Assembly (NCBI GenBank): GCA_018827375.1
Contig: JAHJYW010000042.1
Location: 62,001 to 126,000, forward strand
Length of the DNA: 64,000 nt
Direction of reading: 5' to 3'
Source: Alphaproteobacteria bacterium
GTDB taxonomy: Bacteria > Pseudomonadota > Alphaproteobacteria > Caulobacterales > Hyphomonadaceae
Both the position numbers and the translations under genes were made by a program. Under the pieces are notes generated by a model, which was not told where the DNA came from, made no database searches, and saw only the letters and a program-made list of their open reading frames with translations. Numbering within the stretch: position 1 is the stretch's first letter; each line of letters opens with the position of its first letter. Positions 3,412 through 27,704 of the stretch are shown here, piece after piece.

Positions 3412-3984
3412 CTACGTGGCCGGACGCGGGTCCGGGGTGGAATTATCGGAGTCGTCTGCGGTTAGCACAGCTGCGCCCAGCGCAACAATCGCGGCGCGCA
3501 GGCTGGAATCCTGAATGCCGGCGGTCCGCGCTTCCAGGGCTTGGCGCTCTGCAGCCGTTAGGGGGCGTTTCTTGCGGCGCGGCGCGGTAGGCTCGCTGGT
3601 CGTCAGGGCGCCCTGAATGATCTTGATGGCAACTATGTCGCCGCCTGCCGACACTGATACACGCTGGCGGATCGTCTCGGCCTGATGCTGCACCAGAGGT
3701 GCGGCCTGCGGAATCACGCGCAGGGTGAGGACGCGGCCATCCTTGCCGCCGGTGATCTTCTCCGGGCGGCAGAAGGGGTAGAGCTTCTCTCCAACAATTT
3801 CCCGCCAGCGGCGCTGCAGGATTTGCACGGCGGGCAGTTTCTTCGCGCCGGACTTGCGTGTCAGGCGTTCGGCGGCAAGGCCAATCTGCGATATGCCGGG
3901 ATGCACTTTGCGAGCCCGCAGATAGCGCAGCCGAACGCGTGCGCGCGCCTCTTCGATGGGGTCGAGGGTTGATCTTGTAACCAT
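3412..3984 (-). CDS. DUF721/DciA-like protein
   Basis: A 190-residue protein whose N-terminal half resembles DUF721, the DciA family. DciA proteins promote loading of the DnaB helicase in bacteria that lack DnaC/DnaI. Recognisable features are the basic start (ARVRLRYLRARK), the tryptophan block LQRRWREIVGEKLYPFCRPEKI and the strand pattern GRVLTLRV. The C-terminal part is basic and low in complexity (PRRKKRPLTAAE). I chose ATG 3984 (MVTRSTLDP). Longer readings run into mutY on the other strand and are not credible. The start lies 42 bp from the divergent mutY start, so both promoters share a very short region. Confidence 0.82.
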   Translation of the reverse strand: MVTRSTLDPIEEARARVRLRYLRARKVHPGISQIGLAAERLTRKSGAKKLPAVQILQRRWREIVGEKLYPFCRPEKITGGKDGRVLTLRVIPQAAPLVQHQAETIRQRVSVSAGGDIVAIKIIQGALTTSEPTAPRRKKRPLTAAERQALEARTAGIQDSSLRAAIVALGAAVLTADDSDNSTPDPRPAT

Positions 3985-4026
3985 TCCCCAAGACAAGCAC
4001 GGCTTGGTGGCGAGGAAAAGGCACAC

Positions 4027-6344
<2,318 letters not shown>

Positions 6345-23250: not shown

Positions 23251-25419
23251 ATGGCTGTTGCGCGGATTCTCTTTGTCTTGCCCTTGCCGGAACCGTTCGA
23301 TTACGCGGTGCCGGAGGGGATGGATTTGCGCGTCGGTTCCTACGTCACGGCGCCGCTGGGCCAGACTGAGCGGCTGGGCGTTGTGTGGGAGCTACTGGGC
23401 GATGAGTCCGTCGCTGGCCGCACCCTGAAGCCTGTGCTGTCGGTCTATGACGTGCCGCCGATGCGGGATGCGATGCGCGAATTCATCAGCTGGGGCGCGA
23501 AATATACAGTGTCGCATCCAGGGCACGTGCTGGGCATGACGCTGCGGGCGCGAGGCGGGCTCTCGCCCTCGCCGACGGAGACCGTGTTCCACCTGACGGG
23601 CGATGTGCCGGGGAAGCTGACCGATGCGCGGCGGCGCGTGCTGGACGTGGCGGAGGAAGTGGGCGCTGTGAACGCGGCGACGCTGGCGGCGGCGGCGGGC
23701 GTGTCGAGCGGCGTGGTGAAAGGGCTGGAGAAGGTTGGCGCGCTGCGGGCCGAGGAGATGGCGGCGGACCTGCCATTTGCCTTGCCGCAGCCGGACCTGC
23801 CGGGCGCGACGCTGACAGGCGAGCAGGCCGAGGCGGCCGAGGTGATGAAGGCATCAATGCGCACGGGTGGCTTTGCGGCTTTCCTGCTCGATGGCGTGAC
23901 GGGCTCGGGCAAGACGGAAGTGTATTTCGAGGCGATTGCGGAAGCGCTGCGCGTGGACCCTGAGGCGCAGATACTGGTGCTGCTGCCGGAGATTGCGCTG
24001 ACGCAGGCGATTCTCTCGCGGTTCGAGGCGCGGTTCGGGGCGGCGCCGGCGCCATGGCATTCGGGCCTCTCGGATAAGGAGCGTCGGCGGACATGGCGCG
24101 AGGCGGCGCATGGCCGCGCGCGGATCGTGATTGGCGCGCGCTCGGCGCTGTTCCTGCCTTATGCGAACCTGAAGTTGGTCATCGTCGATGAAGAGCATGA
24201 TGGCAGCTACAAGCAGGAAGACGGCGTGACCTATCATGCACGCGACATGGCGGTGATGCGGGCGAAGCTGGAAGGCGCGGCCGTTGTGCTGGCCTCTGCG
24301 ACTCCGGCGCTGGAAACAATGGTGAATGCCGAGGCCGGGCGTTACACGCGGCTGATGCTCGCGGCGCGGCCGGGGGCCTCGCGCCTTCCGGATGTGGAAC
24401 TGGTGGACCTGCGCAGGGCGCCGCCGGAGAAGAATCACTGGCTGTCGCCCTGGCTGATCCAGGCGCTGAAGGAGACGCTGGCGGCGGGGGAGCAATCGCT
24501 GCTGTTCCTGAACCGCAGGGGCTATGCGCCGCTTGTGATCTGCAAGGCGTGCGGCGAGCGGCTGAAGACGCCGGGCACCGAGAACTGGCTGACCGAGCAC
24601 CGCTATAGCGGGCGGCTGGTGTGTCATGTGACGGGCTATTCTATTCCCAAGCCGAGCGTCTGCCCGGCTTGCGGAGCCAAGGATTCGCTGATGGGCGTCG
24701 GGCCGGGGGTGGAGCGGGTGGCCGAAGAGGTACGCGTGCTGATGCCGGAGGCGCGGATCGAGATATTCTCGTCAGACACGGCGATGGGCGGCGATGCGAC
24801 GCGTGGCATTATCGAGCGGATGGAGACCGGCGACATTGATGTGCTGATCGGCACGCAGATCGTGGCCAAGGGGCACAATTTCCCGAACCTTACACTTGTC
24901 GGCGTGGTGGACGCCGATTCGGGCATGAAAGGCGGCGACCTGAGGGCCGGGGAGCGGACCTACCAGTTGCTGAGCCAGGTGGCGGGCCGGGCCGGGCGAG
25001 CCGAGCGGCCGGGTAGGGCCTTGGTGCAGACCTATGCGCCGGACAATCCGGCCATGCTGGCGCTGGCGGACGGTGACCGGGACGGTTTCCTGCAGATCGA
25101 GCGGGATGTGCGGGCGGAACTTGGCCTTCCACCGTTTGGCCGACTCGCGGCGATGATCGTCTCTGCGCCGAGTGCGGAAATGGTTGAGGAAGCCTGCCGC
25201 GAGATATCGCTGGCGGCGCCGAACGGTGCGGGAATCGAGCTGTTTGGACCAGCCCCGGCGCCGATTACGGTGCTTCGTGGGCGGCACAGGCGGCGATTCC
25301 TCGTGAAATCGCCAAGGAACGTTGATCTTTCGGCCTATATGGCGGCCTGGATGGCGCGGCTGAAACCCCCGCGCCCTGTCAGGATATCGGTGGATATCGA
25401 CCCGTATTCGTTCATGTAG
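23251..25419 (+). CDS. priA: Primosomal replication-restart helicase PriA, with altered zinc module
   Basis: A 722-residue superfamily 2 helicase that rebuilds replication forks. It has Walker A TGSGKT (217-222), the DEEH box (313-316), GTQIVAKGHNFP and QVAGRAGR. Bacterial PriA usually has eight cysteines binding two zincs. Here C431, C434, C471 and C474 (site 1) remain, but the second pair is T440/T443 and the third is C458 with T461, so only one of four site-2 ligands survives. The rest of the protein looks intact. The zinc region normally helps unwinding and loading of partner proteins. Confidence 0.95.
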   Translation: MAVARILFVLPLPEPFDYAVPEGMDLRVGSYVTAPLGQTERLGVVWELLGDESVAGRTLKPVLSVYDVPPMRDAMREFISWGAKYTVSHPGHVLGMTLRARGGLSPSPTETVFHLTGDVPGKLTDARRRVLDVAEEVGAVNAATLAAAAGVSSGVVKGLEKVGALRAEEMAADLPFALPQPDLPGATLTGEQAEAAEVMKASMRTGGFAAFLLDGVTGSGKTEVYFEAIAEALRVDPEAQILVLLPEIALTQAILSRFEARFGAAPAPWHSGLSDKERRRTWREAAHGRARIVIGARSALFLPYANLKLVIVDEEHDGSYKQEDGVTYHARDMAVMRAKLEGAAVVLASATPALETMVNAEAGRYTRLMLAARPGASRLPDVELVDLRRAPPEKNHWLSPWLIQALKETLAAGEQSLLFLNRRGYAPLVICKACGERLKTPGTENWLTEHRYSGRLVCHVTGYSIPKPSVCPACGAKDSLMGVGPGVERVAEEVRVLMPEARIEIFSSDTAMGGDATRGIIERMETGDIDVLIGTQIVAKGHNFPNLTLVGVVDADSGMKGGDLRAGERTYQLLSQVAGRAGRAERPGRALVQTYAPDNPAMLALADGDRDGFLQIERDVRAELGLPPFGRLAAMIVSAPSAEMVEEACREISLAAPNGAGIELFGPAPAPITVLRGRHRRRFLVKSPRNVDLSAYMAAWMARLKPPRPVRISVDIDPYSFM

Positions 25420-25599: not shown

Positions 25600-26160
25600 T
25601 TGGCGGCATCGACACGTACACATGCGAGTGAAGCTGCCCGGCGCTATGCGCGGGCACTGTTTGAACTTGCGCAGGACAAAGGCCAACTGGCCGATGTCCA
25701 CAATGATTACAAGGCTTTCGTCGAAATGGCGGCTGGCTCGAAAGACCTCGGCATCCTGCTTGAATCGCCCGCGTTTTCGCGCGACGAGAAGGTGAAGGCG
25801 CTGGCCGAAGTGATGAAGAAATCGGGACTTGGCACACTGATGGCGAACTTCGTCGGCGTGATGGCCACGAATGGCCGCACGGCAGACATTGTGCCGGCCC
25901 AAAGTGCCTTTGATGAACTTTATGCGAAACAACGCGGCGTTCAGCGCGCAGTTGTTCGCACCGCAAAAGACATGACAGGCGCCGAGCGCGCCCGCATCGA
26001 ATCGATCCTCGCCAAGGCCGTTGGCGGCGAGGTGGAACTGACCAGCGAGGTTGATCCCTCGCTCATCGGCGGCATCCAGCTGCGCATCGGATCCAAACTG
26101 GTCGATGCGAGCATTTCCGCCAAACTTGAACGCATGAACACCGCCATGAAGGGAGCATAG
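25600..26160 (+). CDS. atpH: F1 ATP synthase delta subunit
   Basis: A 186-residue stator subunit linking F1 to the peripheral stalk. The N-terminal helix [20 protein letters not shown] and the C-terminal [23 protein letters not shown] are typical. The only sensible start is a TTG at 25600 ([17 protein letters not shown]), since no ATG is in frame upstream; a TTG start could lower delta synthesis. It is the first gene of atpHAGDC. Confidence 0.94.
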
Positions 26161-26168
26161 TCAGCTCG

Positions 26169-27704
26169 ATGGATATCAGCGCAGCAGAAATTTCGGGCAT
26201 CCTGAAGTCGCAAATCGAAAACTTTGGCGTTGACGCTGAAGTCTCCGACGTCGGCCAGGTGCTTTCGGTAGGTGACGGCATTGCCCGTATCTATGGCCTC
26301 GACAGCGTGCAGGCTGGCGAACTCGTCGAGTTCGACGGCGGCATCAAGGGCATGGCCCTGAACCTCGAAACCGACAATGTCGGCGTCGTGATCTTCGGTA
26401 GCGACAGCTCGATCAAGGAAGGCGACACTGTCAAGCGCTCCGGCGAGATCGTGTCTGCGCCGGTCGGCAAAGGCCTTCTCGGTCGCGTCGTTGACCCGCT
26501 GGGTGAGCCGATTGATGGTAAGGGCCCGCTGACAGACGTTGCTTCGCGTGACCGCGTCGACGTCAAAGCGCCCGGCATTATCCCACGTAAAGGCGTTCAC
26601 GAGCCAATGATGACAGGTATCAAGGCGATTGATGCCATGATCCCGGTCGGCCGTGGCCAGCGCGAACTCGTCATCGGTGACCGTCAGACCGGCAAGACCG
26701 CTGTCTGCATCGACACGATCCTGAACCAGAAGGCGACGAATGACGCTGCCAAGTCCGACAAGGACAAGCTGTTCTGTATCTATGTTGCTATCGGCCAGAA
26801 GCGTTCGACGGTTGCTCAGGTTGTGAAGACGCTCGAAGAGCGCGGCGCCCTCGACTACACGATCGTTGTGTCCGCTACGGCTTCCGAGCCTGCTCCGCTC
26901 CAGTACCTTGCACCCTTCACCGGCTGCACGATGGGCGAATGGTTCCGCGACAACGGCATGCACGCCCTCATTATCTATGATGACCTTTCCAAGCAGGCTG
27001 TTGCGTATCGCCAGATGTCGCTGCTGCTTCGCCGTCCACCAGGTCGTGAAGCCTATCCGGGCGACGTGTTCTACCTTCACTCGCGTCTGCTCGAACGCGC
27101 TGCGAAAATGGGTGATGCCGCCGGTGCCGGTTCGATGACCGCCCTGCCGATAATCGAAACGCAGGCCAACGACGTGTCGGCCTATATTCCGACGAACGTG
27201 ATCTCGATCACCGACGGCCAGATCTTCCTTGAAACCGACCTGTTCTATCAGGGCATCCGCCCTGCCGTGAACGTTGGTCTCTCGGTCTCGCGTGTGGGCT
27301 CTGCCGCCCAGACGAAAGCGATGAAGAAGGTTGCCGGCTCGATGAAGGGTGAACTCGCTCAGTATCGCGAGATGGCCGCTTTTGCGAAATTCGGCTCCGA
27401 CCTTGATGCTGCCACCCAGCGCCTGCTGAACCGTGGTGCGCGCCTGACTGAACTTCTGAAGCAGCCGCAATACTCGCCGCTGCTTATGGAAGAGCAGGTT
27501 TGCGTGATCTACGCGGGTACGCGCGGTTATGTGGACAAGGTGCCGGTTGCTGACGTCACCCGTTACGAGAAAGAGCTTCTGGTCCACCTGCGTGGTGCCA
27601 AGAAAGACCTGCTCGCAACGATCCGCGATGAAAAAGCCGTGTCGGACAAGACAGAAGCCGAGCTCAAGACGACGCTCGAATCCTTCACGTCGAAGTTCGC
27701 CTGA
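26169..27704 (+). CDS. atpA: F1 ATP synthase alpha subunit
   Basis: A 511-residue subunit with P-loop GDRQTGKT (170-177) and the alpha signature region around [28 protein letters not shown]. It forms the non-catalytic nucleotide sites in the alpha3-beta3 ring. It begins 8 bp after atpH. Confidence 0.98.

Follow-up and report, generated by a model that had tools for sequence, protein, structure and literature searches.

The priA gene on the stretch of alphaproteobacterial DNA analyzed here (64,000 nucleotides, hereafter the window) raised the question of how a replication restart helicase would hold its DNA-splitting hairpin when one of its two zinc sites appeared to be missing. PriA has been described as the only restart factor to be conserved throughout bacteria (PMC10218098), and the zinc fingers of the E. 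coli protein have been called essential (PMC7290993). The window protein was 99% identical to Hyphomonas oceanitis PriA and 98% identical to H. chukchiensis PriA, nearest named relatives that place the window in a Hyphomonas genome, and a search of that genome returned a single PriA match. It scored 583.5 bits with TIGR00595 (cut-off 230.35) and 1062.5 bits with NF004070 (cut-off 921), and PF17764, PF00270, PF00271, and PF18074, all over cut-off, marked the 3′ DNA-binding, DEAD motor, and C-terminal domains; PF18319, the model of the PriA CRR zinc ribbon, reached 12.8 bits against a cut-off of 26. The AlphaFold2 model of the protein had a pTM of 0.88, its nine best Foldseek matches were all PriA chains, and the best solved match by fold in VIA-align over the PriA rows was 4nl4 (Z 33.5, 4.2 Å over 679 residues). 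The helicase motifs, described as intact in an earlier note on this DNA, were indeed so: Walker A residues G215, T217, G218, G220, K221, and T222 and the motor residues D313-E314-E315-H316 (DEEH) were invariant in an alignment of 58 PriA proteins.

The same note had read a cysteine pattern of C431/C434, T440/T443, C458/T461, and C471/C474, which was borne out by the codons and by an alignment with Klebsiella PriA that ran with no gap over the four CXXC pairs (Table 1). The site-1 cysteines were all encoded by TGC (C431 at 24541, C434 at 24550, C471 at 24661, C474 at 24670), and the site-2 positions read T440 ACG (24568), T443 ACC (24577), C458 TGT (24622), and T461 ACG (24631). We take the eight PriA cysteines to form two nested sites, one made by cysteines 1, 2, 7, and 8 and the other by 3, 4, 5, and 6, a scheme that fitted because the three inner cysteines were lost jointly. 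With this assumed pairing, the claim that site 1 was intact and that site 2 lacked three of its four ligands held: of the features of a two-zinc CRR, the window PriA had the site-1 Cys4 and lacked the site-2 Cys4, three of the four positions being Thr. The E. coli site-1 knuckles, presumably Cys436/439 and Cys476/479, agreed with the numbering that the note had used (E. coli minus 5). This numbering also fitted the residue numbers given in PMC10175261.

Table 1. Positions in the window of priA, the parts of its zinc module, and dciA
Feature	Position	Strand	Basis
priA, 722-aa replication restart helicase	23251-25419	+	One intact frame; TIGR00595 and NF004070 matches
Site-1 knuckle A, Cys431-x-x-Cys434, kept	24541-24552	+	Codons; Cys-Cys in 245/245 rows compared
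Former site-2 knuckle A, Thr440-x-x-Thr443 instead of CXXC	24568-24579	+	Codons, alignment
14-residue hairpin 444-457 between the site-2 knuckles	24580-24621	+	Model; putative wedge by homology
Candidate replacement packing V457, Y463, I465, K467	24619-24651	+	Comparison of loser and keeper columns
Former site-2 knuckle B, Cys458-His-Val-Thr461 instead of CHHC	24622-24633	+	Codons, alignment
Site-1 knuckle B, Cys471-x-x-Cys474, kept	24661-24672	+	Codons; kept in all losers
DciA gene	3412-4221	-	PF05258, 34.1 bits, match 3631-3876; one of the weaker class-sample matches

The zinc module was aligned over Hyphomonadaceae and other alphaproteobacteria, a comparison that the earlier note had proposed, and the loss was shared by an entire order and by three small ones. 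PriA proteins without Cys440, Cys443, and Cys461 are called losers here, and those with all three are called keepers. Among the 256 PriA rows compared (251 distinct proteins), 124 distinct proteins lacked all three cysteines, 126 had all three, and one (L060) lacked one; no loser among the 251 retained one or two of the three, an all-or-nothing pattern, and site 1 was complete in every loser. In the window's order, which we take probably to include Caulobacter, a PriA match was obtained in 98 of the 105 genomes from the family and in all 200 from the order, and all 104 genomes fetched as a sample, from five family codes, were losers. Outside the order, 205 of the 207 genomes sampled from the class had a PriA match, and 60 were fetched, chosen among rows with better scores, with one genome for most families; 56 were keepers, and the four losers (L186, L187, L188, and L191) fell in three small orders. 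These orders comprised 5, 3, and 4 genomes, and all 11 with a readable module were losers, the twelfth (G471) having only a PriA fragment outside the module. A set of 80 named loci held nine losers (L045–L052 and L056, the last a Parvularcula MAG), 68 proteins with all eight cysteines, and L060, without one inner cysteine. The named loser assemblies included H. oceanitis, H. johnsonii, H. chukchiensis, and Henriciella marina, and none of the 33 loci placed outside alphaproteobacteria by title had lost site 2. The earlier statement that each lost ligand had become Thr was correct for the window protein and failed in the wider group, where Ser, Ala, Thr, and rarely Val were present.

Judged from these sequence comparisons, the loss of site 2 is an old, conserved trait of the whole order and three small orders and not a defect of one genome. 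Chance or sequencing error was ruled out, as the three cysteines were jointly absent in 124 distinct proteins from many assemblies. That the pattern reflects an artefact of sequencing or assembly, or that a second, intact PriA exists elsewhere, is hardly credible; we found no evidence for either, and both are countered by the recurrence of the same states in those proteins and by the finding of a single PriA match in the genome. The window PriA was missed by PF18319, a Pfam model based on cysteines, which at E 0.01 matched 48 of the 58 members of the PriA alignment (nine losers in it), P0001 being among the ten misses. NF004070 was rejected as a marker of either group, as it scored over cut-off in four losers, five keepers, and L060 alike; because it does not separate losers from keepers, the NF004070 result of the Caulobacter control was uninformative on the site of that protein. 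Two other departures were seen among the 80 named loci. L060, from the MAG alphaproteobacterium IP29b_bin.24, had Arg at one inner cysteine and kept the other seven, the sole one-ligand case among the 251, and L093 and L096 (Pelagibacteraceae) had Asp aligned at the eighth cysteine, in site 1 (CCCCCCCD), where the alignment was loose.

The earlier note had also held that the gene was not decaying, and the substitution pattern agreed. In 24 sequences of the window's family, uncorrected and with high pS (about 0.56–0.66), pN/pS was 0.151 for residues 438–464, against 0.248 for the site-1 flanks, 0.245 for HD1, 0.137 for HD2, 0.478 for residues 1–185, and 0.273 for the C-terminal domain. Because this ratio was low, the 438–464 stretch is, by this measure, maintained under purifying selection. 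Mean entropy of the stretch was 0.75 in losers and 1.28 in keepers, the keepers being somewhat more diverse (mean identity of 0.533 in keepers and 0.574 in losers). Its rank in excess conservation varied with the reference set, from 38 of 696 when the 84 keepers were used to 50 of 696 with a dense set of 30; excess conservation in losers peaked at 452–480, and the lowest stretches started at 452–454. These values bear on the idea of relaxed constraint, by which a lineage lacking E. coli-type restart partners would have depended less on the wedge, lost site 2, and left the module to drift. We consider such drift quite improbable, as the low pN/pS, the lower entropy in losers, the invariant motor residues, and a hairpin between the inner knuckles fixed at 14 residues in 124/124 losers (117/126 keepers) all speak against it, although the variation of the ligand positions among Ser, Thr, Ala, and Val and the failure to find PriC or PriB over cut-off in the 58-genome class sample would fit, as would the description of E. 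coli PriA-PriB restart as independent of helicase activity in vivo (PMC10175261).

The changes around the lost site were followed in 67 losers and 84 alphaproteobacterial keepers, non-redundant at 85%, and positions 440, 443, and 461 took the top three places for clade specificity among the 722 columns. None of these columns carried Cys or His in a majority of losers without also doing so in a majority of keepers, which indicated that nearby cysteines do not supply the missing ligands, and the claim of a lost site stood against that alternative. Residue 457 was V, I, or M in 129/129 losers and 27/127 keepers; residue 463 was F, Y, or W in 129/129 and 69/127; residue 465 was M, I, or L in 129/129 and 22/127; and residue 467 was K or R in 126/129 and 13/127. 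The set of four was complete in 126/129 losers and 1/127 keepers, counts that are to be read as a pattern and not as a significance test, because the same data served to choose the columns and the rows share ancestry. In keepers, positions 457, 460, 465, and 467 were mostly variable or occupied by different residues, and the only keeper with the whole set was L082, a Bradyrhizobiaceae MAG with all eight cysteines, which would fit a permissive background. Residues 442 and 444 were mostly acidic in losers, with Gly442 in the window protein, and a salt bridge from acidic 442/444 to basic 467 is possible. Four of the top 20 gains in hydrophobicity fell inside 438–470 (P 0.007, relatedness ignored).

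H450 and H459 were invariant in losers and keepers alike, and C458 was kept in nearly all losers, which raised the alternative that site 2 is still metal-bound through altered ligands, namely Cys458 (or Asp458), His459, His450, and an acidic residue at 442 or 444. The three residues were invariant in the 58-row alignment, Cys458 where lost was replaced by Asp, a possible ligand, and the acidic residues of losers could complete such a site. However, the two histidines were equally invariant in keepers with the full Cys4, Ser, Thr, Ala, and Val are poor ligands, and the window protein has glycine at 442, so that a rebuilt metal site appears unlikely. Asp stood in place of Cys458 in 3/3 genomes of the order to which G266 belongs, and Cys458 would therefore be dispensable.

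The explanation that we favor as probable is that this single-copy PriA has kept zinc site 1 and that its zinc site 2 has been replaced by metal-free packing. Elsewhere, zinc 2 would tie both ends of the DNA-splitting hairpin, and in losers small polar residues and a hydrophobic patch, perhaps with the 442/444–467 salt bridge, would take over that tie. The all-or-nothing, clade-wide loss, the constant presence of site 1, the dispensability of Cys458, the lack of a replacement Cys/His column, the low pN/pS, the residue set at 457, 463, 465, and 467, and the predicted fold argue for metal-free packing; the lower pLDDT of the module, the peak of excess conservation at 452–480, the occurrence of the whole residue set in L082 beside eight cysteines, and the capacity of H450, H459, and C458 to hold a metal argue against it. 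Cys-to-Gly mutants of E. coli PriA, a result attributed to Zavitz and Marians in 1993, were reportedly helicase-deficient, and this, like the description of the E. coli zinc fingers as essential, also counts against metal-free packing. In E. coli, the CRR hairpin acts as a wedge that is essential for unwinding, and the CRR swings about 85 degrees, closing a pore around the lagging-strand ssDNA and exposing the PriB-docking face (PMC10175261). Loser PriA would still unwind the lagging strand with one zinc instead of two, and its CRR would still swing to form the ssDNA pore.

The predicted strands flanking the hairpin were arranged alike in the window PriA and in the canonical PriA of Kaistia adipata (L066). 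The pLDDT per ten residues over 431–480 of the window protein was 84, 78, 81, 86, and 89, and over 421–470 of L066 (shifted by 7) it was 90, 92, 86, 91, and 93. The AlphaFold2 inputs held 58 and 56 sequences and, because both alignments mixed losers and keepers, the two models were pulled together. A broader proposal, which we offer as a rather doubtful one, is that the PriA of a large group of alphaproteobacteria naturally carries one zinc, its hairpin being held by packing alone, a state that possibly goes back to one ancestor of several orders. If PriA of this group does carry one zinc, its replication restart could tolerate zinc loss or thiol oxidation to some extent, and the group would display residues able to replace a structural zinc.

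The earlier note had suggested that the change alters partner loading. With the assumed numbers of the E. coli cysteines, the residues on which PriB docks fall in and right after the site-1 knuckles. These residues were given as Asp438, Ser481, Thr482, and His483 (PMC10175261). Because losers keep site 1 and the site that they lost borders the hairpin, the change would be expected to affect the wedge and not the known partner face. PriC was found by profile search in 0/58 genomes of the class sample, and PriB was over cut-off in 0/58, with three weak matches below cut-off; both searches found the E. coli control. In the window's own genome, PF07445 and TIGR04418 gave no match at E 0.001, the E. 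coli control being found by both, and the PriB and PriC genes of an E. coli-type PriB/PriC restart system were not found there. DciA was over cut-off in 51/58 genomes of the sample, and the Caulobacter vibrioides control was found. In the window, dciA lay beside a divergent gene at 4027–5070 (+) that, from its motifs, is presumably MutY-like. A dciA/MutY-type neighborhood has been described for Caulobacter (PMC9825169). The two known losers in the 58-genome sample, the window's own genome (G000) and G266, had DciA, and PriB and PriC were not found in them, as in most genomes sampled. Altered partner loading was thus not supported, as the PriB-docking residues flank the kept site 1 and these two known losers, a small number, resembled keepers, although another partner of this region may exist.

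A related alternative is that the changed module affects how a restart partner docks and evolves together with DciA or a lineage-specific partner. In E. coli, partners dock on the CRR (PMC10175261) and Zn-finger motifs are described as needed for contacts with primosomal proteins (PMC7290993); the loser-specific conservation spans 452–480, towards site 1, and DciA, which is encoded in the window, may act with PriA in Caulobacter (PMC9825169). Nevertheless, the PriB face of E. coli PriA adjoins the site 1 that losers keep, PriC and PriB were not found over cut-off in a 58-genome sample where DciA was mostly present, and the two known losers showed no visible difference; we therefore consider this alternative unlikely.

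The states at the lost positions also suggested how the loss proceeded. The three small orders carried mostly Ser (S-S-C-S, S-S-C-T, and S-S-D-T; one member A-T-C-T); in the window's order, position 440 was mostly Ser, Ala, or Thr, position 443 was mostly Thr or Ser, and position 461 was Thr. The simplest path would run from Cys to Ser, followed by Ser to Thr or Ala. In a tree built without the module, losers needed three changes, and a single loser clade had a p-AU of 0.242; with only the four ligand columns removed, three changes were again needed, the p-AU was 0.435, and 16% of bootstrap trees contained the single clade. Three changes were also required by a quick tree of 93 rows. In the tree without the module, the loser order L260–L262 grouped with keepers L185 and L192 at 94/95, a grouping that would require a second, separate loss of site 2 or its recovery. 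One origin is favored by the Ser states and by the residues common to all loser orders at 457, 463, 465, and 467, but these may be compensation. One origin is possible, being neither shown nor rejected by the trees. Residue 483 (24697–24699) was a further Cys in 83% of alphaproteobacterial keepers and 16% of losers, was Val in the window, and was still Cys in the three small loser orders.

Compared with the two-zinc PriA of E. coli and Klebsiella (4nl4, 6dgd, and 8fak), the window PriA shared the domains, fold, motor residues, site-1 Cys4, and 14-residue inner spacing, and differed in having three of four site-2 cysteines replaced and PF18319 below cut-off. The site-2-less PriA is a variant of a known protein and no new system. 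Zinc ribbon folds persist after cysteine replacement in ribosomal protein paralogues without zinc-binding cysteines. These paralogues coexist with the zinc form, whereas here the sole PriA found in the genome is the changed one. The PriA pseudohelicase of Deinococcus is likewise a lineage-specific loss of conserved PriA residues, but the residues lost there are those of ATP hydrolysis and helicase activity, whereas the window PriA keeps the motor and has lost a zinc site (PMC4504706). In the portions available to us of a mostly open-access literature on the PriA zinc sites, the CRR, and alphaproteobacterial restart, we found no description of site-2 loss. An order that does without site 2 helps to separate the role of each zinc, as site 1 always stays and site 2 is replaceable, and the losers amount to a natural experiment on the DNA-splitting hairpin.

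Eight-Cys alphaproteobacterial PriA, such as that of K. adipata, has cysteines at 440, 443, and 461, unlike the window PriA; NF004070 was over cut-off in both groups, and an atpA motif followed priA in part of both. In the window, priA lay just upstream of an ORF at 25600–26160 and a gene at 26169–27704, which from their motifs we take to be ATP synthase delta-like and the alpha subunit gene. The atpA motif followed priA in 20/45 of loci L045–L089 (5/9 losers, 15/36 others) and in 2/35 of loci L090–L124, some flanks being short, and the window priA is probably the inherited orthologue, as these counts suggest. Genome G035 had a second, partial PriA match (contigs C14 and C6), 66% identical to the query over residues 233–722, which is perhaps contamination (5% estimated) or a duplicate.
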